Shown here piece after piece: positions 7,693 to 33,712 of a stretch of 34,786 bases of DNA. The stretch is from a virus: positions 1 to 34,786 of the IMG/VR virus record IMGVR_UViG_3300045136_000423; one strand, 5' to 3'. The notes beneath the pieces are model-generated. The model saw nothing but the letters and a program-made list of their open reading frames with translations. It made no database searches and was not told the DNA's origin. A program made the translations under genes and the position numbers. Each line of letters starts with the position of its first letter. Position 1 is the first letter of the stretch.

Positions 7693-7916
7693 CCGGCTGG
7701 TGCCTGTGCTGGTGGCTGGTGGTCGAGGCGGCCCGCATCGTCGGCTTGGGGCTGCCGCCGGAAGCGCGGCCGCGCGAGGCCTACGGCCCGTTCGGCACGC
7801 GCGAGCGTTGCGAGCTGGCGCTGGAGGCAGCGCAGGCGGCGCCGGGAGAGGCCGACTGGGCGATCGAGCGCGGGCGCTGCGAGCGCCGCGAGCGCGCCGC
7901 GGAGGCGCGGCGGTGA
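7689..7916 (+). CDS. Small hypothetical protein, early operon
   Basis: The 75-residue product starts at GTG 7689 in a GTGA overlap. It has a short hydrophobic, tryptophan-rich N-terminus (GWCLCWWLVVEAARIVGLG) and a charged helical remainder with ERCELALEAAQAAPGEADW and three cysteines. The segment EAYGPFGTRERCELALEA is reminiscent of small cysteine-containing proteins with a leader-like N-terminus, but no clean signal peptide is present. Function not recognised. Confidence 0.55.
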   Translation: MTGWCLCWWLVVEAARIVGLGLPPEARPREAYGPFGTRERCELALEAAQAAPGEADWAIERGRCERRERAAEARR

Positions 7917-8344
7917 GCGTGCCCGCGCGTCTGGCCGCGGCGATCCATGCGTGCCGCCGCCGCGTGCCGGGGCTGGAGGACGAGGCCGCGTGGCGGGCGT
8001 TCCTGTCGCGCGTCGCCGGGCGCGACAGCTTGCGGGCGATGAGCGGGCCGGAGCTCGGCCGGGTGCTGGATGCGCTGCACGCGGCCGGGGCGCCGCGGAC
8101 GCCGGGGAGCGGCGCGGCCCGGGGCGCGATCCCGCGCGACCCGCTGTCGGCCAAGGTGCGCGCGCTGTGGCTGGCGCTGGTGGAGGCCGGGGCGGTGGCG
8201 GACCGGTCGGAGCGCGGGCTGGACGCCTGGGTGGCGCGGCAGTGCGGCGTCTCGAGCCTGCGGTTCTGCGGGCCGGAGCACAAGGTGCGGCTGATCGAGG
8301 CGCTGAAGATCTGGGCGCGCCGCGTCGGCGCCGACGGATGGTAG
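7913..8344 (+). CDS. gemA: GemA-family regulatory protein (DUF1018)
   Basis: This 143-residue protein has the GemA pattern: AAIHACRRRVPGLEDEAAWRAFL and VAGRDSLRAMSGPELGRVLDAL in the N-terminal half, then LSAKVRALWLALVEAGAV and a C-terminal stretch with LIEALKIWARRVG (about 79-138). In Mu, GemA/Mor lie together and GemA affects host gene expression and DNA supercoiling. The start is GTG 7913 overlapping the previous stop, and the Mor gene starts 7 bases before this stop. This is the usual gemA-mor order. Confidence 0.88.
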   Translation: MSVPARLAAAIHACRRRVPGLEDEAAWRAFLSRVAGRDSLRAMSGPELGRVLDALHAAGAPRTPGSGAARGAIPRDPLSAKVRALWLALVEAGAVADRSERGLDAWVARQCGVSSLRFCGPEHKVRLIEALKIWARRVGADGW

Positions 8345-8748
8345 CGGTGTCCGCGCGCGGGGCGCTGCGGACCGGGGCGCGGCGGTGGTTGCCGGCGCTG
8401 CTGCGCGAGGTGGCGGAGCGCTGCGGCGAGACCGCGGCGCTGCGGCTCGCCGAGGCCTGGGGGGGGCGCTACCTGCATGTGCCGCGACGGGTCTCGCCCG
8501 ACCATCCGGTGGCCCGGAACGTTGGGCTGGACGTGCTGGCCTACCTGGTCGAGGCCTACGGCGATCTGGGGCGGATCGTGGTGCCGATGGGCCCGGCGCC
8601 GCGGCGGGCACGCTCGGAGCAGGTCGTGGCGCTGGTGGAGGCCGGGGCGAGCGCGAACGAGATCGCGGCGCGCACGGGGCTGCACGTGCGCGACGTGCAC
8701 CGGTGGAGGCGGCGGCTGCGGGAGGCACGCAGTGCCGATCCGGCTTGA
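8338..8748 (+). CDS. mor: Mor/C-family middle transcription activator
   Basis: The 136-residue protein carries the Mor pattern: an N-terminal dimerisation region with WGGRYLHVPRR (41-51), DHPVARNVG (55-63), YGDLGRIVVPM (74-84) and a C-terminal helix-turn-helix GASANEIAARTGLHVRDVHRW (103-123). Mor activates the middle promoter in Mu by contacting RNA polymerase at promoters lacking a -35 box. Only one Mor/C-family gene is visible in this phage, so it may drive both middle and late transcription. Three candidate target promoters (9501-9537, 19728-19764, 32917-32953) share one motif. ATG 8338 overlaps the gemA end. Confidence 0.88.
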   Translation: MVAVSARGALRTGARRWLPALLREVAERCGETAALRLAEAWGGRYLHVPRRVSPDHPVARNVGLDVLAYLVEAYGDLGRIVVPMGPAPRRARSEQVVALVEAGASANEIAARTGLHVRDVHRWRRRLREARSADPA

Positions 8749-9067
8749 GCAGCGCGGCCTCTATCCGCGGGACTGGCCGGCGATCAGCCGGCGGATACGG
8801 GCGCGCGCGGGCTGGGTGTGCGAGACGCCGGGCTGCGGCGCCGCGCAGGGCGCGCCGCACCCGATCACGGGCGCGCGGGTGGTGCTGACGGTGGCGCATC
8901 TCAACCACGATCCGAGCGACTGCCGCGACGAGAACCTCCGCGCGCTGTGCCAGAGGTGTCACAATCGCTATGATGCGCCGATGCGCGCGGCGGGGCGGAG
9001 GGCGCGCTCGCGGGCGGCTCTGGGCGTTGGCGAGTTGCCCCTCACCGGCGGGAGGAGCGGAGGATGA
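8732..9067 (+). CDS. HNH endonuclease-type protein
   Basis: This 111-residue protein has a zinc-binding HNH layout: C30 and C35 (CETPGC), LTVAHLNHDP with H56 and H59, N68, then LCQRCHNRYD with C73, C76 and H77. Two CxxC-like pairs and the H-N-H order fit a small metal-dependent nuclease. In Mu-like phages of alphaproteobacteria, an HNH gene often follows mor. It might help packaging or degrade host DNA, but the role is not shown. The GTG start at 8732 overlaps the end of mor by 17 bases. Confidence 0.85.
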   Translation: MPIRLEQRGLYPRDWPAISRRIRARAGWVCETPGCGAAQGAPHPITGARVVLTVAHLNHDPSDCRDENLRALCQRCHNRYDAPMRAAGRRARSRAALGVGELPLTGGRSGG

Positions 9068-9429: not shown

Positions 9430-9500
9430 CCGCAGCGCCGCGGACAGTCTCGCGGCATTGCACGAGATGCCACCGCGCGTGCTGACGGCGTGAGACGCCG
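9430..9500. terminator. Stem-loops after the early operon (possible terminators)
   Basis: GCCGCG/CGCGGC at 9437-9442 and 9451-9456 forms one stem-loop. ACGGCGT-GAG-ACGCCGT at 9485-9501 forms a second, perfect one that abuts the TGTCAGCCTG motif. Neither is followed by a T-run, so intrinsic termination is uncertain. The second may instead be part of an activator or repressor site. Confidence 0.35.
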
Positions 9501-9537
9501 TGTCAGCCTGCCCGGCCAGGTCGGCATCGCGCATTGT
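9501..9537 (+). promoter_or_regulatory. Candidate Mor-activated promoter 1 (middle/late)
   Basis: TGTCAGCCTG (9501-9510) is followed after exactly 21 bases by CATTGT (9532-9537), which keeps the A2 and T6 of a -10 box. No -35 box is seen, as expected for an activator-dependent promoter. The same 10-mer and spacing recur before 19773 and 32969. Transcription would begin at about the ATG at 9544, and no ribosome-binding site precedes that ATG, suggesting a leaderless message. Confidence 0.6.
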
Positions 9538-9543
9538 CCCAAC

Positions 9544-9918
9544 ATGGAATGGGTGGCCAAGTTTCAGGGTTTGATCGGACTGACGATCTCCCTCCTGGTG
9601 AGCGCGGCGGTGGGCGCGATCGCCCTCGCGCTGCGCTCGCAGGTGCAGTCGCTGGTCGCCGACCGCGCTTCGGCCGTGGATCTCGCGCGCGTCTCCACGC
9701 AGGTGGACGACGTGGATCGCCGCGTGATGCAGATCGAGGCGCGACTCGCAACGTTCCCCACCGGCGAGCAGATCCAGCAGCTCTCGGTGCGGCTCGAGTC
9801 GCTCGCGGGCGACGTGCGGGCCACGCTGGCCCAGCTCAGCGGCACGAACGAGATGTTGCGCGCGCAGGCGCGGCGGATCGAGCTGGTGGACGAGTATCTG
9901 CGGAGGCGCGAGGCGTGA
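9544..9918 (+). CDS. DUF2730-type membrane coiled-coil protein
   Basis: The 124-residue product has an N-terminal transmembrane segment (about 8-28, GLIGLTISLLVSAAVGAIALAL) and a long coiled coil (about 35-120). This layout and its place before the terminase genes match the DUF2730 family of Mu-like phages, whose function is unknown. An earlier GTG at 9490 is in frame but lies inside the promoter motif, so ATG 9544 is chosen. It is the first gene of the head operon and its stop overlaps the next start. Confidence 0.75.
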   Translation: MEWVAKFQGLIGLTISLLVSAAVGAIALALRSQVQSLVADRASAVDLARVSTQVDDVDRRVMQIEARLATFPTGEQIQQLSVRLESLAGDVRATLAQLSGTNEMLRAQARRIELVDEYLRRREA

Positions 9919-10979: not shown

Positions 10980-12306
10980 CGCGTCAGTGGAGTCCCCCGC
11001 GATCCCGCTCTACGCCTATCAGCGGCGGTGGCTGGCGGACCGCAGCAAGTTCAAGATAGGCATGTTTGCGCGCCAGACCGGCAAGACGTTCACGACGACG
11101 CTGGAGATCGTCGACTCCTGCCTGCGCGCCCTGGCCGAGGGCAGCCGCGAGCGCTGGGTGATCCTGAGCCGCGGCGAGCGCCAGGCGAAGGAGGCGATGG
11201 ACGAGGGCGTGAAGCGCCACGCCCAGGCCTACGGGGTGGCGCTGGAGGCCGAGGAGTACGATTGGGTCGGCGCCGAGACGCGCGTGCGCGCGCTGGAGGT
11301 GGCGCTGCCCGGCGGCAGCCGCATCACCGCGCTGCCGGCCAATCCCGACACCGCCCGCGGGTTCTCCGCGCACGTGTTCCTCGATGAGTTCGCCTATCAC
11401 CAGGACAGCCGGGCGATCTGGCGCGCGCTGTTCCCGGTGGTGTCGCGGCCCGAACTCAGGCTGCGGATCACCTCGACGCCGAACGGGCGGGGCAACGTGT
11501 TCTACGACCTGATGTGCGGCGGCGATCCGATCTGGTCGCGTCACGTGGTGACGATTTACGACGCGGTGGCGGACGGGCTGCCGCGCGACATCGAGGCGCT
11601 GAAGCGCGCGCTGCGCGACCCCGACGCCTGGGCGCAGGAGTACGAGTGCGCGTTCCTCGACGAGGCCTCGTCCTGGCTGCCCTACGCGCTGATCGACCAG
11701 GTGCAGCACGAGGAGGCGGGCCAGCCGGCGCTCTATGCCGGCGGCCCGTGCTACGTCGGCGTGGATATCGCGGCGCGGCGCGACCTGTTCGTCCTCGTGG
11801 TGCTCGAGGAGGCCGGCGACGTGCTGTGGCTGCGCGAGATGGTCGCCGGGCGGCGCCTGCGCTTCGCCGACCAGGCCGCGGAGCTCGACCGGGTCATGGA
11901 GACCTACCGCGTGCGGCGTGTGTGCATGGACCAGACCGGGATGGGCGAGATGCCGGTGGAGGACGCGCAGGCACGGCACGGCGCGCTCAGGATCGAGGGC
12001 GTGCTGTTCACGGCGGCGGTGAAGCACCGCCTGGCGACGCTCGCGAAACGGCGCTTCGAGGCCCGCGCGTTGCGCATCCCGCCAGACCCGGATCTGCGGC
12101 GCGACCTGCATGCGCTGAAGCAGGCCGTGGGCGCGACCGGCGTGCCGCGTTTCGTGGTGGACGGCGACACCGACGGCCACGCCGACCGGGCCTGGGCGCT
12201 GTTCCTGGCGCTGGCGGCGGCCGAGCGGCCGGCGGCGCCGATCGAGCATCGCGCGGCGGGGATGCCGCGTGTGGCGGCGCGGCTCGACGACTACGTGGGG
12301 GCGTGA
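10972..12306 (+). CDS. Large terminase subunit (Mu gp28-like)
   Basis: This 444-residue packaging motor has an ATPase half with Walker A RQTGKT (34-39), Walker B VFLDEF (135-140, D138/E139) and a coupling motif RITSTPNG, and a nuclease half with acidic residues D265 (GVDIAARRD), D320 (MDQTGMG) and D405 (DGHADRAW). It pumps DNA into the prohead and cuts by the headful. Mu-like phages package outward past the phage end into host DNA. ATG 10972 gives the normal start PDASVESPAIPLYAYQRRW. Confidence 0.93.
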   Translation: MPDASVESPAIPLYAYQRRWLADRSKFKIGMFARQTGKTFTTTLEIVDSCLRALAEGSRERWVILSRGERQAKEAMDEGVKRHAQAYGVALEAEEYDWVGAETRVRALEVALPGGSRITALPANPDTARGFSAHVFLDEFAYHQDSRAIWRALFPVVSRPELRLRITSTPNGRGNVFYDLMCGGDPIWSRHVVTIYDAVADGLPRDIEALKRALRDPDAWAQEYECAFLDEASSWLPYALIDQVQHEEAGQPALYAGGPCYVGVDIAARRDLFVLVVLEEAGDVLWLREMVAGRRLRFADQAAELDRVMETYRVRRVCMDQTGMGEMPVEDAQARHGALRIEGVLFTAAVKHRLATLAKRRFEARALRIPPDPDLRRDLHALKQAVGATGVPRFVVDGDTDGHADRAWALFLALAAAERPAAPIEHRAAGMPRVAARLDDYVGA

Positions 12307-15160: not shown

Positions 15161-15838
15161 GTGACCTGGTACCTCCGCGGCTGGTACGAGTCGGGCTGGT
15201 ACGAGGCCGGGCCCGCGACGTCCGGCCTGGCCGCGTCGCTCGCCGCGACGGAGGCCGGCGACACGCTCGCCGCGGCCGCGAGCGTTGCCGTGACGGCGTC
15301 GCTCGCCGTGACCGAGGCCGACGACACGCTGACCGCGGCCGCGGGCGTCGCGCTGACCGTATCGCTCGCGGTCACGGAGGCCGGCGACACGCTGACCGCG
15401 GCCGCGGGCGTCGCGCTGACCGTATCGCTCGCGGTCACGGAGGCCGGCGACACGCTGACCGCGGCCGCGGGCGTCGCGCTGGCCGCGGTGCTGGCCGCGA
15501 CCGAAACCGACGATACGCTGGCCGCGACGGTCTCGCTCGCCGAGGGGCTGACGGCGTCGCTCGCCGTGACCGAGGCTGACGACACGCTGACCGCGGCCGC
15601 GGGCGTCGCCCTGGCCGCGTCGTTCACGGTGACGGAAGCCGACGACACCCTGGCCGCGGCCGCCGGCGCCGCGCTGACCGTATCGCTCGCGGTGACAGAG
15701 GCGGACGATGCGCTGGCCGCGGCGACGCTGATGCCGGGCGACGCCCTGCCGCCGCCGTGGCGCCTGGCGCGCCCGCGCCGGCCGGTCCGGCGCGTCCGAC
15801 CGGCGGCGCCGCGCCGCATCGCGAGGCTCGCCGCGTGA
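15161..15838 (+). CDS. Ala/Thr-rich repeat protein of the fibre block
   Basis: The 225-residue product starts at GTG 15161 with WYLRGWYESGWYEAG, then consists of about eight copies of a 21-residue unit around SLAVTEADDTLTAAAGVAL, and ends in a basic proline/arginine tail. Repeats with the (A/V)TEADDTL core are common in phage structural proteins and probably form a beta-solenoid or stacked-strand shaft. The final PRRPVRRVRPAAPRRIARLA could bind DNA or capsid. The next gene overlaps by 4 bases. Confidence 0.65.
   Translation: MTWYLRGWYESGWYEAGPATSGLAASLAATEAGDTLAAAASVAVTASLAVTEADDTLTAAAGVALTVSLAVTEAGDTLTAAAGVALTVSLAVTEAGDTLTAAAGVALAAVLAATETDDTLAATVSLAEGLTASLAVTEADDTLTAAAGVALAASFTVTEADDTLAAAAGAALTVSLAVTEADDALAAATLMPGDALPPPWRLARPRRPVRRVRPAAPRRIARLAA
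15230..15720 (+). repeat. 63-bp tandem repeats
   Basis: The DNA encoding the 21-residue units is repeated with a 63-bp period. Blocks 15355-15417 and 15418-15480 are identical, and the others are diverged. Copy-number change by slippage or recombination would keep the reading frame, so the shaft length could vary between related phages. Confidence 0.8.
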
Positions 15839-19494: not shown

Positions 19495-19727
19495 TCGCCG
19501 CCGCGCCGAACCACCGCCCCAGGACATGCCGATTAAGAGCGATTAAGCATACCTAAGAGCGGCCTCTGAGGAGCAGCCGGTAGGTGGGGTGCGGCCAGCG
19601 GCACACCCCACTCAGCGACGATCCTAGGGGCTCGCAGGCAGGAGCCTGCCGACCGCCGCGGCGGCCTTCGCAAGCAGTGGCTCGAGATCGGCCGGCGGCG
19701 GGTCGGTCCACACCGCCTGGCAGAGCG
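19495..19727. terminator. Non-coding stretch with stem-loops and short direct repeats
   Basis: No gene is called in this 233-base gap. It holds TAAGAGCG at 19534-19541 and 19554-19561, exactly 20 bases apart, with a partial copy between them, all AT-rich for this genome. GTGGGGTG (19584-19591) pairs with CACCCCAC (19604-19611), and GGCAGG-AG-CCTGCC forms a perfect palindrome at 19637-19650. The stem-loops could end the upstream transcript, but neither is followed by a T-run. A leftward open frame ending at 19624 has no start codon nearby and was not called. Confidence 0.4.
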
Positions 19728-19764
19728 TGTCAGCCTGTTGGCGCGTCCGGGCGGCCGCTAGCGT
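19728..19764 (+). promoter_or_regulatory. Candidate Mor-activated promoter 2 (before protease/scaffold gene)
   Basis: TGTCAGCCTG at 19728-19737 is followed after exactly 21 bases by TAGCGT (19759-19764), a -10-like hexamer with T1, A2 and T6. A partial dyad CTGGCA-N5-TGTCAG spans 19717-19733. The gene that follows is the protease gene, which in Mu also has its own late promoter (PI). Transcription would begin only about 2 bases before ATG 19773, and no ribosome-binding site is present. Confidence 0.6.
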
Positions 19765-19772
19765 GCCGCGCG

Positions 19773-20885
19773 ATGGACACGACCGCCACTCTGCCCGTGC
19801 TCGAGGTGTTTCGCGCCGGCACGCACACCGACGCCGCCGGGCGGCGCGTGACGATCTCGCCCGAGGATCTGCGTGCGATCGCCGAGGCCTACGATCCGGC
19901 GCTGCACGAGGCGCCGATCGTGATCGGCCACCCGGCCGACGACGCGCCCGCCTATGGCTGGGTGCGGCGGCTCAGGGTCGAGAGCGACCGGCTGCTCGCC
20001 GAGCCCGACCAGGTCGAGCCGCAGTTCGCCGAGCTGGTGCGTGACGGCCGCTTCAAGAAGATTTCGGTCGCGTTCTACGGCCCCGACGCGCCCGGCAATC
20101 CGAGGCGCGGCAGCTGGTATCTGCGTCACGTCGGGTTCCTCGGCGCGCAGCCGCCGGCGGTGAGGGGGCTGCGCGCCGTGCAGTTCGCGGGCGGCGATGA
20201 GGGTGTGAGCGTGTTCGGCGAGGCCGCGTCGCTCTCGCTCGCCGCGCGTCTGTTCCGCTCGCTGCGCGAGCTCGTGCTGGCGCAGTTCGGCCAGGAGGCC
20301 GCGGACCGCGCCCTGCCGGCCGAGACGATCGAGGCGATCGCCGAGACCGTGCCCGCCGAGGCGCGGCCCGCGCCGGCCTTCGCCGAACCCACCACGCAGG
20401 AGACCGTGATGCCGGATCCGACAGAGGACCGCGCGGCCGAGTTCGCCGAGCGCGAGCGCGCGCTTGCCGCGCGCGAGAAGGAGATCGCCGCGCGCGAGGC
20501 GGCGCTGGCAGAGGCCGAGCGCGCGCGCCGCGCCGCCGAGGATGCCGCCTTCGTCGAGCGCCTGGTGCGCGAGGCGCGGCTGCCGGTCGAATGCCGGCCG
20601 ATCGCCGCGGCGCTGCTGCGCGAGCTGGACGCCAGCGAGACGGTCGAGTTCGCCGAGCTCGGCCGGACCTCACGGCACCAGGCCCTGCGCGCCCTGCTCG
20701 AGCGGCTGCCGCCGCGCGTCACGTTCGGCGAGGTCGCCGGCGACGGGCCGCGCGCGGCCGACCCGACCGACGTCCGGTCGATCGAGGCCGCGGCCGACGC
20801 GCTGGTGAGAGCGCGCGCCGAGGCAGGCCAGACGATCTCGTTCCGCGAGGCCGTGCGCCTCGTCACTGGGGAGCAGCGGGCATGA
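19773..20885 (+). CDS. I: Prohead protease/scaffold fusion (Mu gpI-like)
   Basis: This 370-residue protein has an N-terminal protease region (about 8-140) with PIVIGHPADDAPAYGWV (H53), GRFKKISVAFY (S98) and LRHVGFLGAQPPAV (H119), features that could form the active site, though residue assignment is tentative. Residues about 213-280 are a charged coiled coil (RAAEFAERERALAAREKEI) and the end is helical, as in scaffolding proteins. It should shape the prohead and then degrade the scaffold. ATG 19773 is used: frames extending upstream run through the promoter motif. An internal start for the scaffold alone is described separately. Confidence 0.88.
   Translation: MDTTATLPVLEVFRAGTHTDAAGRRVTISPEDLRAIAEAYDPALHEAPIVIGHPADDAPAYGWVRRLRVESDRLLAEPDQVEPQFAELVRDGRFKKISVAFYGPDAPGNPRRGSWYLRHVGFLGAQPPAVRGLRAVQFAGGDEGVSVFGEAASLSLAARLFRSLRELVLAQFGQEAADRALPAETIEAIAETVPAEARPAPAFAEPTTQETVMPDPTEDRAAEFAERERALAAREKEIAAREAALAEAERARRAAEDAAFVERLVREARLPVECRPIAAALLRELDASETVEFAELGRTSRHQALRALLERLPPRVTFGEVAGDGPRAADPTDVRSIEAAADALVRARAEAGQTISFREAVRLVTGEQRA
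20409..20885 (+). CDS. Z: Nested scaffold protein from internal start (Mu gpZ-like)
   Basis: An in-frame ATG at codon 213 of the protease gene is preceded by AGGAGA (20398-20403) with a 5-base spacer, better than many true starts in this window. It would produce a 158-residue scaffold with the coiled coil and C-terminal helices but no protease domain. Nested scaffold genes inside the protease gene are known in Mu and lambda. Expression is inferred from the ribosome-binding site and domain boundary. Confidence 0.65.
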   Translation: MPDPTEDRAAEFAERERALAAREKEIAAREAALAEAERARRAAEDAAFVERLVREARLPVECRPIAAALLRELDASETVEFAELGRTSRHQALRALLERLPPRVTFGEVAGDGPRAADPTDVRSIEAAADALVRARAEAGQTISFREAVRLVTGEQRA

Positions 20886-24567: not shown

Positions 24568-24884
24568 GCGGCGGTGACGCGGTGGCGCGGCTCGACGAGA
24601 TGGCGTCGCTCGGCGCGACGCCGCAGGCGCTGGCGGAGGCGCGTGCCCGTGCGCCGGCCGCACTGGAGGTGTGGCCGCAGAACTGGCCCGCCGTGAGGTT
24701 GTTTTTGGCGATGCAGACGCAGTGGCGCCGCGCTGGCATGACGGGCGTGCCGACGGGGCTCGACTACGCGGCGCTGCCGGTCGCCGCGCGCGCGCTGCGG
24801 CTGAGGCTGACCGGCGACGTTCTACGCCGCCTCCAGGTGATCGAGGCCGAGGCGCTGGCGGCGCTGGCGGAGGCGCGCGCGTGA
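24531..24884 (+). CDS. Tail assembly chaperone T extension (made as GT by frameshift, DUF1799-like)
   Basis: Read in the -1 frame from 24531, 117 codons follow the G part without a stop: RDVARRWADPRGGGDAVARL, then WPQNWPAVRLFLAMQTQWR and GVPTGLDYAALPVAARAL, the DUF1799 pattern of small tail proteins, then a final helix. The fusion spanning 24205-24884 would have 226 residues. A separate start at ATG 24600 or nearby is possible, but no good ribosome-binding site is seen. The T part should bind the tape measure protein, encoded immediately downstream with a GTGA overlap. Confidence 0.85.
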   Translation: MRDVARRWADPRGGGDAVARLDEMASLGATPQALAEARARAPAALEVWPQNWPAVRLFLAMQTQWRRAGMTGVPTGLDYAALPVAARALRLRLTGDVLRRLQVIEAEALAALAEARA

Positions 24885-26632
24885 GCGACCTGGCCGTCCG
24901 CCTGGTCCTGACCGCCGACGGCCGCGCGCTGCGCACCGAGATTGTCGGCGCGAGCCGCGAGGTGGAGGCGTTCGCCTCGCGGCTCGAACAGGGCGGAGTG
25001 CGCGTGCAGCGCTCGGCCGTGCAGGCGGGCGAGGCGCTCCAGCGCATCGGCCAGAGCGCCGCGGTGGCCGGGCGCCAGGTCGAGGCGGCGATGACCGCGG
25101 CCGCATCGCCGGCGGTGGCGCGGCTGCGCGCGAACCTGGGCCAGGTCGGGTTCCAGCTCGGGGATTTCATCACCCAGGTCCAGGCCGGCGGCAACGCGTT
25201 CACGGCGTTCGCGCAGCAGGGCGGCCAGCTCGCGGGGCTGCTGGCCGGCGGCCTCGCCGGGCTCGCGGTGCAGCTCGGCGCGGTTGCCGCGCAGATGCTG
25301 TTCGCGCAGCGTTCGACCGAGAGTGCCGCGGCGGCGGAGCGCGGGTTCGGCGCCGCCGCCGAGGCCGTCAACCGCGTGCTCACCACACGCGAGGAGCGGG
25401 CACGGCGCGCGGCGGAGGCCACGCTCGACCTCGCCATCCGCACGGCGCAGGCGCGGCTCGAGGGCCTGCGCGCGGCGCAGGCGGATGCCGAGTTGCGCCG
25501 CGCCAACGTTCTGCGCAGCCTCGGCGGGCTGGAGCGCGATCTCGAGGAGGCGTCGCCGCGCAACCGGCCCGGCGTGCAGAGCGACATCGACGAGGCGCGG
25601 CGCGAGCTCGAGAAGCTCGACGGCCTGCTGCGCATCCAGGGCAACCTCCTGCGCGACGCGGAGCGGCAGCTCGCCGACATCACGCGGACGGGCACGCGCA
25701 ACCTCGTCGACGCGGTCGGCGGGCGCCGTCGCGACGGCGACCTCGACCCATTCGCGCGGCTGAAGGAGGCGGCGCGGCGGCTGGAGGAGGAGCTGCGCAC
25801 GCCGCTCGACCGGTATCTCGACAGCGTGCAGCGCCTGCAGAACTTGTTCCAGGCCGGGCTGATCTCGCAGGACCTGTTCTATCGCGGCCTGGCGCGAGCG
25901 TCCGAGGAGCTCGACCGCGCGCAACGCCGGGCCGAGGGCGCGGCCGACGGGGTGGGCGATCTCCAGCAGGCATTCGCGCGGCTCGAGGACTCGATCGAGG
26001 GTGTGGGGCGCAGCGCGGCCCAGGCGCTCGCCGACGCGCTGGTCGGGGTGCGCGCGCTCGAAGGCGGCGTGATGGGACTGATCCAGCGCCTGGCCTCCGA
26101 CGTGCTGCGCAAATTGATCTACGACCAGATCACCGCGCCGCTGGCGCAAGCCGCGGGCGTGCTGCTGCGGTCGGGGCTGGTGTCGCTGTTCCGGCCGAGC
26201 CTGGGGCCGGTGAACTCGATCGACGCCGGCATCCCCGTCAGCGCGTTCCCGTTCCACAGCGGCGGCGTCGTCGGCCGCGAGGGCGGGGCTGCGCGCGCGG
26301 TGCCCGAGGCGCTGTTCGCCGTCGCCCCACGCCTGCACTCGGGCGGCTGGATACGGCCGGGCGAGGTGCCGGCGATCCTGCGACAGGGCGAGGGCGTGTT
26401 CACGCCCGAGCAGATGCGCGCGCTGGGGGCTCGCGGCGACGTGGTGATCAACGTGATCGACCAGCGCGGCGCCGGCGCCCCGCCGGTCGAGACGCGCGAG
26501 CGGCGCGGCGAGGACGGGCGGCGGGTGATCGACCTGATCGTGCGCGACGCGGTCAATCGCGGCATCGCCGACGGCGCCTTCGACCGCTCGATGGGCCTCG
26601 CCTACGGGCTCGCGCGCGCCGGGCTGAGGTGA
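24881..26632 (+). CDS. Tape measure protein
   Basis: This 583-residue protein starts at GTG 24881. It opens with DLAVRLVLTADGRALRTEIVGA, has long helical/coiled regions (about 30-110 and 160-330), a hydrophobic stretch (LAGLLAGGLAGLAVQLGAVAAQM, about 115-140), and a C-terminal region with FHSGGVVGREGG, LHSGGWIRPGEVPAILRQGEGVFTPEQM and a tail typical of tape measure proteins of Mu-like siphophages. It fixes tail length and passes into the host envelope. By the usual rule of about 1.5 Å per residue, the tail would be roughly 90 nm; that is inference. Confidence 0.88.
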   Translation: MSDLAVRLVLTADGRALRTEIVGASREVEAFASRLEQGGVRVQRSAVQAGEALQRIGQSAAVAGRQVEAAMTAAASPAVARLRANLGQVGFQLGDFITQVQAGGNAFTAFAQQGGQLAGLLAGGLAGLAVQLGAVAAQMLFAQRSTESAAAAERGFGAAAEAVNRVLTTREERARRAAEATLDLAIRTAQARLEGLRAAQADAELRRANVLRSLGGLERDLEEASPRNRPGVQSDIDEARRELEKLDGLLRIQGNLLRDAERQLADITRTGTRNLVDAVGGRRRDGDLDPFARLKEAARRLEEELRTPLDRYLDSVQRLQNLFQAGLISQDLFYRGLARASEELDRAQRRAEGAADGVGDLQQAFARLEDSIEGVGRSAAQALADALVGVRALEGGVMGLIQRLASDVLRKLIYDQITAPLAQAAGVLLRSGLVSLFRPSLGPVNSIDAGIPVSAFPFHSGGVVGREGGAARAVPEALFAVAPRLHSGGWIRPGEVPAILRQGEGVFTPEQMRALGARGDVVINVIDQRGAGAPPVETRERRGEDGRRVIDLIVRDAVNRGIADGAFDRSMGLAYGLARAGLR

Positions 26633-32914: not shown

Positions 32915-32916
32915 CG

Positions 32917-32953
32917 TGTCAGCCTGACCGCTGTCGCCGCGCCGCGCCAGGAT
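32917..32953 (+). promoter_or_regulatory. Candidate Mor-activated promoter 3 (lysis unit)
   Basis: TGTCAGCCTG at 32917-32926 is followed after exactly 21 bases by CAGGAT (32948-32953), which keeps A2 and T6 of a -10 box. CTGAC-GT-GTCAG at 32911-32922 is a perfect dyad overlapping the motif. It lies immediately before the endolysin gene, where Mu has Plys. Unlike the two other copies, the gene here has a ribosome-binding site, GAGGTG, before its ATG. Confidence 0.6.
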
Positions 32954-32968
32954 GCGCGCGAGGTGACC

Positions 32969-33712
32969 ATGGCAGACGGCCGCAATCCGAAATTCGAGCG
33001 CTGCATCGCGATCGTGCTCCGGCACGAGGGCGGGTTCGTCGCCGACCCGCGCGACCCTGGCGGCGCGACCAACATGGGCATCACGCGCGCCACGCTCGCC
33101 GACTGGCGCGGCGGAGAGGTGACCGTCGACGACGTCCGCGCGCTTACCGAGACCGAGGCGCGCGAGATCTACCTGGCGCTCTACTGGAACCCGGTGCGGG
33201 GCGACGACCTGCCGCACGGCGTCGACCTGGCTGTGCTTGACTTCGCGGTGCACGCTGGTGTGCGGCGCGCCGCGCGTACGCTCCAGCACGTGCTCGGCGT
33301 GACGGAAGACGGCGTGATCGGCCGCGAGACCCTTGGCGCCGCCCGCCGCGCCGACCGCGCATCGGTGATCGACGGGCTATGCGATCTGCGCCTGCGCCAC
33401 CTCCGGGGCCTGGCCCACTGGACCACCTACGCGCGCGGCTGGACCCGGCGCGTGGAGGAGGTGCGGGCCGCAGCGCACGAGATGGCGCGGCGCGGCCTGC
33501 CGCTGGCTGAGGCGGCGCGCACAGACACGGTTCGGGCCTCGACCGCGGCCGCGGCCTCCGTCGCCGGCGCCGCCGCGCTGATCCAGGAGATCGCCCCGGC
33601 CGTGCAGGCACTGGCGCCGGTCCTCGACCGGCTCGGGCCGGCGGGGCTCGTGGCGCTGGCCGCCGCGCTCGCCGTCGCGGGCGTGGTGATGTGGCGGAGG
33701 CGGCGCGCCTGA
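32969..33712 (+). CDS. Endolysin (glycoside hydrolase 108 type) with C-terminal membrane segment
   Basis: This 247-residue protein begins with the GH108 motif: catalytic E20 in RHEGGFVADPRDPGGATNMGIT (residues 18-39), a YW-P segment LALYWNPVRGDDL and a peptidoglycan-binding-type region around LQHVLGVTEDGVIGRETL (about 110-127). It cuts the glycan chain of murein. The C-terminal 60 residues are helical and end in a transmembrane segment (about 224-242) with a basic tail RRRRA, so the enzyme would be membrane-anchored, possibly combining the lysin and a holin-like or anchoring part. No separate holin gene is visible. ATG 32969 is preferred over GTG 32963, which lies within the ribosome-binding site. 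Confidence 0.88.
   Translation: MADGRNPKFERCIAIVLRHEGGFVADPRDPGGATNMGITRATLADWRGGEVTVDDVRALTETEAREIYLALYWNPVRGDDLPHGVDLAVLDFAVHAGVRRAARTLQHVLGVTEDGVIGRETLGAARRADRASVIDGLCDLRLRHLRGLAHWTTYARGWTRRVEEVRAAAHEMARRGLPLAEAARTDTVRASTAAAASVAGAAALIQEIAPAVQALAPVLDRLGPAGLVALAAALAVAGVVMWRRRRA

Follow-up and report, generated by a model that had tools for sequence, protein, structure and literature searches.

Repeated half-sites at a fixed distance from -10-like hexamers suggest direct late activation by a single Mor-family protein in a Mu-like phage

The window analysed here is the whole 34,786-nucleotide stretch of the viral record IMGVR_UViG_3300045136_000423 (positions 1 to 34,786), which has a GC content of 74% and comes without a host genome; over 18.7 kb, the sequence L004 represents the same phage. 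Since relatives occur in named genomes of the Acetobacteraceae (Elioraea, Roseomonas), Accumulibacter and Paucibacter, among others, the host probably lies near the Acetobacteraceae. The early region encodes a repressor-like helix-turn-helix (HTH) protein, a Ner-like protein, a ParB_N protein (1404-2234, E=1.2e-6), proteins in the positions of MuA and MuB, GemA and, finally, a Mor-family protein. The gene for the latter (8338-8748, + strand, 136 aa) follows gemA (7913-8344) directly, close to the end of the early operon, and matches PHROG 836, 'late transcriptional activator', with E=1.1e-20. Its Pfam match (PF08765, E=3.7e-4) scores under the cut-off, at 20.9 versus 24.9 bits; the assignment to Mor is backed by the PHROG and profile comparisons. 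A Foldseek search with the Mor model returned generic HTH matches only and was set aside. Mor and C are the textbook activators of phage Mu, and a second Mor/C-family gene, as in the Mu-type Mor-then-C cascade, was not found in the window, which holds one Mor-family match. Downstream of mor lies an HNH endonuclease gene (8732-9067), a similar gene being present downstream of mor in the relative G002 (11443-11772), followed by a small lipoprotein-like ORF.

This ORF precedes the first of three exact copies of a 12-mer, CGTGTCAGCCTG, located on the + strand at 9499-9510, 19726-19737 and 32915-32926 (sites 1 to 3), which we propose to be activator half-sites. Each copy occupies a non-coding gap (9430-9543, 19495-19772 and 32915-32962, measuring 114, 278 and 48 bases, respectively) and lies just before the first gene of a unit, in agreement with the sequence-only reading of this DNA, which had assigned the units to head/terminase, protease and endolysin functions. 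Unit 1 opens with a 124-aa gene in the place of Mu gp25 (9544-9918, + strand, PHROG 736) and continues with a Mu gp26-like gene (PHROG 436) and the small terminase gene. Unit 2 opens with the head maturation protease (19773-20885, + strand, PHROG 976, E=2.5e-109). The first gene of unit 3, which also contains a spanin-like gene, is a GH108/lysozyme-type endolysin (32963-33712, + strand, PF05838, E=1.5e-28; PHROG 315) starting at GTG 32963 or ATG 32969. A 63-base tandem repeat (7.8 copies, 15227-15723) was observed within the coding frame 15161-15838, which belongs to an ORF block flanked by the large terminase and portal genes.

Within the 12-mer, the 10-mer TGTCAGCCTG had been reported at 9501, 19728 and 32917 and nowhere else, and an exact search of the whole window confirmed this: there are three copies, all on the + strand, compared with 0.01-0.05 expected per strand, and no further copy with one mismatch. 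Many extra copies at random positions had been named as an argument against a shared promoter element; two-mismatch copies occur in the window at chance level only (40 found versus 30 expected). Exactly 21 bases after the 10-mer, all three sites carry a hexamer of the pattern [CTG]A...T, namely CATTGT (9532-9537), TAGCGT (19759-19764) and CAGGAT (32948-32953), all on the + strand, so that the claimed spacing and the retention of A2 and T6 of a -10 box hold as well. Repetition alone is modest evidence, because a simulated genome contains on average 0.15 equally rare 12-mers with three widely spaced copies, whereas two are present in the window, the other being GGCGCTGATCCA at 2605, 10311 and 22003, inside genes. 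When gene calling was trained on conserved genes of the phage itself, 96% of the sequence came out as coding, and non-coding DNA between called genes made up 3.1% of the window (positions 1000 to 34700). The case for the sites is strong because all three fall inside these gaps, with the hexamer at exactly 21 bases.

The 10-mer is missing from most relatives and not conserved beyond the closest ones, an apparent refutation that is lifted because each relative, searched for its own repeat, shows its own site. Mu-like relatives with a Mor-family gene carry a repeated site of their own, usually an 18-bp palindrome in 2-4 copies each, and comparison of the gaps within each relative placed these sites before lysis/packaging, protease, tail or endolysin units. 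Site 1 often starts a few bases from the mor stop codon, as in G013, G017, G036, G037, G039, G040 and G061. The consensus of the closest relatives is GGCTGA-N6-TCAGCCTG-N21-TANGGT, of which the window retains the promoter-proximal half only. The operator GGCTGA-N6-TCAGCCTG was obtained by gap comparison in G001, G003 and G035, while the half-site TCAGCCTG and the N21 spacing are identical in G001, G003, G034, G035, G043 and G044, with the full dyad GGCTGA-N6-TCAGCC being kept. Other relatives use CAGGCCGA-N6-TCGGCCTG (G002, three copies, one with an altered distal arm), CCCTGACA-N2-TGTCAGGG (G006), TGCGGAC-N4-GTCCGCA (the Roseomonas-type group of G013), GCCCGCG-CC-CGCGGGC (G017, three copies), CCCCGGACG-N2-CGTCCGGGG (G039 and G042, three copies) and CTTTAA-N6-TTAAAAG (G053, G054 and G056, four copies), and further operator classes were also found. 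The window sites themselves are not dyads: of the 9 positions in their distal half, 2-3 agree with the mirror sequence that a dyad would require, and when the spacer was shifted, no spacing common to the sites brought out a conserved distal half.

No clear repeated site was found in some relatives (e.g. G010, G012 and G016) or in KS10, in which the Mor protein has its best match among annotated phages and where no convincing repeated dyad was seen. A k-mer scan of protease upstream regions using a simple count score was dominated by GC-rich words. In G047, G048, G049, G050, G055 and G057 (L197-L207), CTGCTGAAG...CACCTTAT-like words occur after mor and before the protease gene, which has a GGGAGG Shine-Dalgarno sequence; this is possibly a non-palindromic operator class. 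Imperfect direct repeats of 50-57 bases lie before units in G019 (L100; 3284 and 10796) and in G004 (6891 and 16555 of the oriented sequence). They include a TAGGCT/TAGTCT hexamer, are longer than the other operators and are not simple dyads. A single ORF of G009 (L086, 14140-14718) contains two tandem Mor-type stretches, possibly a Mor fusion or duplication, and in the same genome long GGGACCGG repeats lie ahead of several genes.

In the closest group, the hexamer is located exactly at N21, counted from TCRGCCTG, in 10 of the 12 dyads GGCYGA-N6-TCRGCCT found on the + strand, with at most one hexamer at any other offset from 5 to 44 (one each at two offsets). Half-sites without a dyad have the hexamer at N21 in 5 of 47 cases, three of these five being the window sites. 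Across 12 site classes, the hexamer lies at +31 to +34 of the palindrome centre at 45 of 55 sites, against a background of 10%; because these sites are not independent of each other, the binomial value for this count is not readable as a probability. Inside each site class the offset is nearly constant. After alignment by centre, the window half-site GTGTCAGCCTG lines up with GCGTCAGCCTG of G001/G003 and with the other classes. The window hexamer is then 33 bases from the aligned centre at all three sites, and the spacing of promoter 1 is the same in relatives. With the typical hexamer position, the aligned centre falls near -44, and we infer that the window sites are centred there, in place of a -35 box.

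Cultured phages were included in the comparison. In phage B3, whose capsid protein is 59% identical to that of the window, TTTTCG-N6-CGAAAA occurs three times, ahead of the lysis unit, the protease gene and the tail unit, and each copy has the hexamer at +31. Curvibacter phage TJ1 contains four copies of GGTGAA-N4-TTCACC, one of them facing a divergent lysis module; the hexamer is present at +32 of all four in the transcribed direction and of none when the palindrome is read backwards. For the B3-like phage Fc02, a published study describes three forward late clusters in strand-specific RNA-seq after induction, the first starting with holin-endolysin and packaging genes and the second being mainly structural, and places mor in the early operon on the opposite strand (PMC9936078). 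Late promoters are not named in the passages considered here (PMC9936078). With B3 standing in for Fc02, its three dyads precede units of the kind seen there as late clusters. In Pseudomonas phage Bise (L221), ACTAAAG-type dyads lie ahead of several units, and a reverse-transcriptase gene near the right end (35606-36637) is perhaps part of a diversity-generating element. The mor/gemA labels of SS2019XII (L225, 24647-25572) look shifted by one gene, with GP028 (24647-25006) being Mor and GP029 annotated as mor.

We then compared the recognition region of Mor with the operators. The window, G001 and G003 have the Mor helix GLHVR-VH and the half-site TCAGCCTG in common. Across classes, the similarity of the Mor HTH correlates with operator similarity (r=0.53, p=0.001, Mantel), but the rest of the protein correlates about as well, so that this correlation, which may reflect phylogeny, is not specific evidence. 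The best sequence evidence for Mor reading the sites is the comparison of B3 with JBD67, whose Mor proteins differ at 7 of 14 HTH positions versus 11 of 106 positions elsewhere (Fisher p=0.001). PM105, JBD18 and SS2019XII group with JBD67 in their Mor and operator differences from B3. Between B3 and this group the operators differ at all three units, the promoter-proximal halves being CCGAAAAGC, CCGAAAAGC and TCGAAAAGC in B3 and CCAAAAAGA, CGACAAAGA and CCACAAAGA in the JBD67 group, while units 1 and 2 show little change in the hexamer and in the DNA downstream. As in the window, conservation in the JBD67 group is found mainly in the promoter-proximal half.

The geometry has a further aspect that the sequence-only reading had missed, namely that the spacing would put the start codon of two window units at the predicted transcription start. 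At 32 of 58 sites, the window included, an ATG at +43 to +48 of the centre begins a frame of at least 100 codons. The 5-base bin from +45 to +49 holds 29 start codons, every other bin of that size holding 0-3. A Shine-Dalgarno-like word precedes none of these 32 first genes, versus 281 of the 520 remaining ATG genes in these genomes, a figure somewhat inflated because the gene caller rewards such words. Given an ATG at the predicted transcription start and no Shine-Dalgarno sequence, leaderless late mRNAs are thus predicted. In the window, this prediction concerns unit 1 (ATG at +45 of the site centre) and unit 2, where the protease start at 19773 lies at +47 and has no Shine-Dalgarno sequence; leaderless protease starts are likewise predicted for G001, G003, G034, G035, G043 and G044. 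The endolysin of unit 3 is probably not leaderless, since GAGGTGA precedes ATG 32969.

Taken together, the sites are very probably late promoters on which a single Mor-family protein acts directly as the activator, without the Mor-to-C relay of Mu. The three 12-mers would be the operator halves of these promoters. Expressed from the early operon, the Mor-family protein (8338-8748) would bind each site, centred near -44 and replacing the -35 box, and the bound protein would recruit host RNA polymerase to the weak -10 hexamer, located 33 bases past the centre. Packaging and head genes would be switched on first, then the protease, capsid and tail genes, and then the endolysin, with a single activator for all late units and no second activator C. 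We infer both Mor binding at the sites and the transcription starts from the comparisons above. The choice of the single Mor-family gene at 8338 as the activator of all three promoters finds support in dozens of Mor-bearing relatives, whose sites, homologous or not, share position, spacing to the -10 hexamer and downstream units. The word, earlier suggested to define a new Mor-type site, corresponds to one half of the relatives' dyad.

The sites could instead be promoters of a host alternative sigma factor, consisting of a long -35-like element plus a -10 and used without any phage activator, which would account for a hexamer at a fixed distance and for the lack of a dyad in the window. This is unlikely because the upstream element varies from phage to phage while hexamer and spacing stay, even among B3-like phages reported from the same host species that have different Mor helices; furthermore, dyads are present in most relatives, and the two elements of a -35/-10 pair would not be as far apart as 21 bases. 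Operators of a repressor or of a partition/ParB-type protein, lying before units by coincidence, are more improbable still. Palindromes are common for such proteins and the window encodes the ParB_N protein mentioned above, but the hexamer keeps its constant distance of 31-34 bases in the transcribed direction only, the sites are absent from the window's early promoter region, and operator changes accompany changes of the Mor helix. Least probable, and for practical purposes refuted, is a chance triple 12-mer with coincident hexamers in a GC-rich genome, for although GGCGCTGATCCA is equally rare and also present three times, its copies lie in genes, whereas the three sites all lie on one strand within the 3.1% gaps, have the hexamer at N21 and agree in the alignment with the half-site of relatives that show the same spacing.

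Beyond the direct activation of late promoters by Mor in the window, we consider it moderately likely that Mu-like phages from several proteobacterial groups share a clade-wide late switch. It would combine one Mor activator, a fast-changing operator at a fixed distance, joint change of operator and recognition helix, and leaderless transcripts of first genes such as that of the head protease; the window activator may use a single extended half-site. The resulting rule (a repeated operator, a hexamer at +31 to +34 and an ATG often at +43 to +48) would locate late promoters from sequence alone and covers the laboratory phages B3 and JBD67 too. About a dozen activator-operator pairs with fixed geometry constitute a data set for helix and sites changing together, and leaderless translation of structural genes is predicted for phages of Gram-negative bacteria. 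In the part of the literature that was searched, late operators of B3-like phages and of alphaproteobacterial Mu-like phages are not described, and late promoters are not defined for Mu-like phages other than Mu.

In phage Mu, the site bound by the Mor dimer is a 16-bp dyad that has its centre at -43.5 and replaces the -35 element (PMC4390567). Like Pm with Mor (PMC4390567, PMC4287176), the window has a phage-encoded Mor-family activator (PHROG 836, beside GemA), a site in place of the -35 box and a recognisable -10 hexamer, the site centre being about -43.5 in Pm and predicted at about -44 in the window. The window operator differs in sequence from that of Pm, and one feature of the strict Mu definition, dyad symmetry, is lacking because the window sites are without the distal half; it is present in the close relatives. 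In Mu itself, we assigned a candidate near-dyad, AGTAA-N6-TTAAT, after mor, with TATCCT at +31. We claim that the window sites would work like Mor-dependent promoters, in register with the sites of the relatives. Mu Mor drives the middle operon only, making C, whereas the window Mor is predicted to drive the late units directly. In having several late units and one paralogous activator, the window resembles Plys, PI, PP and Pmom with C (PMC4461284), and the lysis/packaging and protease units of Mu begin at places comparable to those of the window. The published Mu late promoters have a C site adjoining a -35-like element (PMC4461284). Unlike the Mu late system, the window has no C gene, and its endolysin forms a unit of its own at the right end. 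Pm, PI and Plys had all been named as counterparts of the three sites; since C is absent and the late units appear to be under direct control of Mor, the C-dependent Plys and PI fit this role and Pm does not, and the far-end endolysin unit has no exact counterpart in Mu.

Finally, the B3-like Pseudomonas aeruginosa phages (B3, JBD67, PM105 and Fc02) differ from the window in their divergent early genes, and B3 differs in the letters of its operator, TTTTCG-N6-CGAAAA. They have in common with the window a single annotated Mor gene, and B3 shares with it three repeated sites before late units, each with the hexamer at a fixed distance (+31 in B3).
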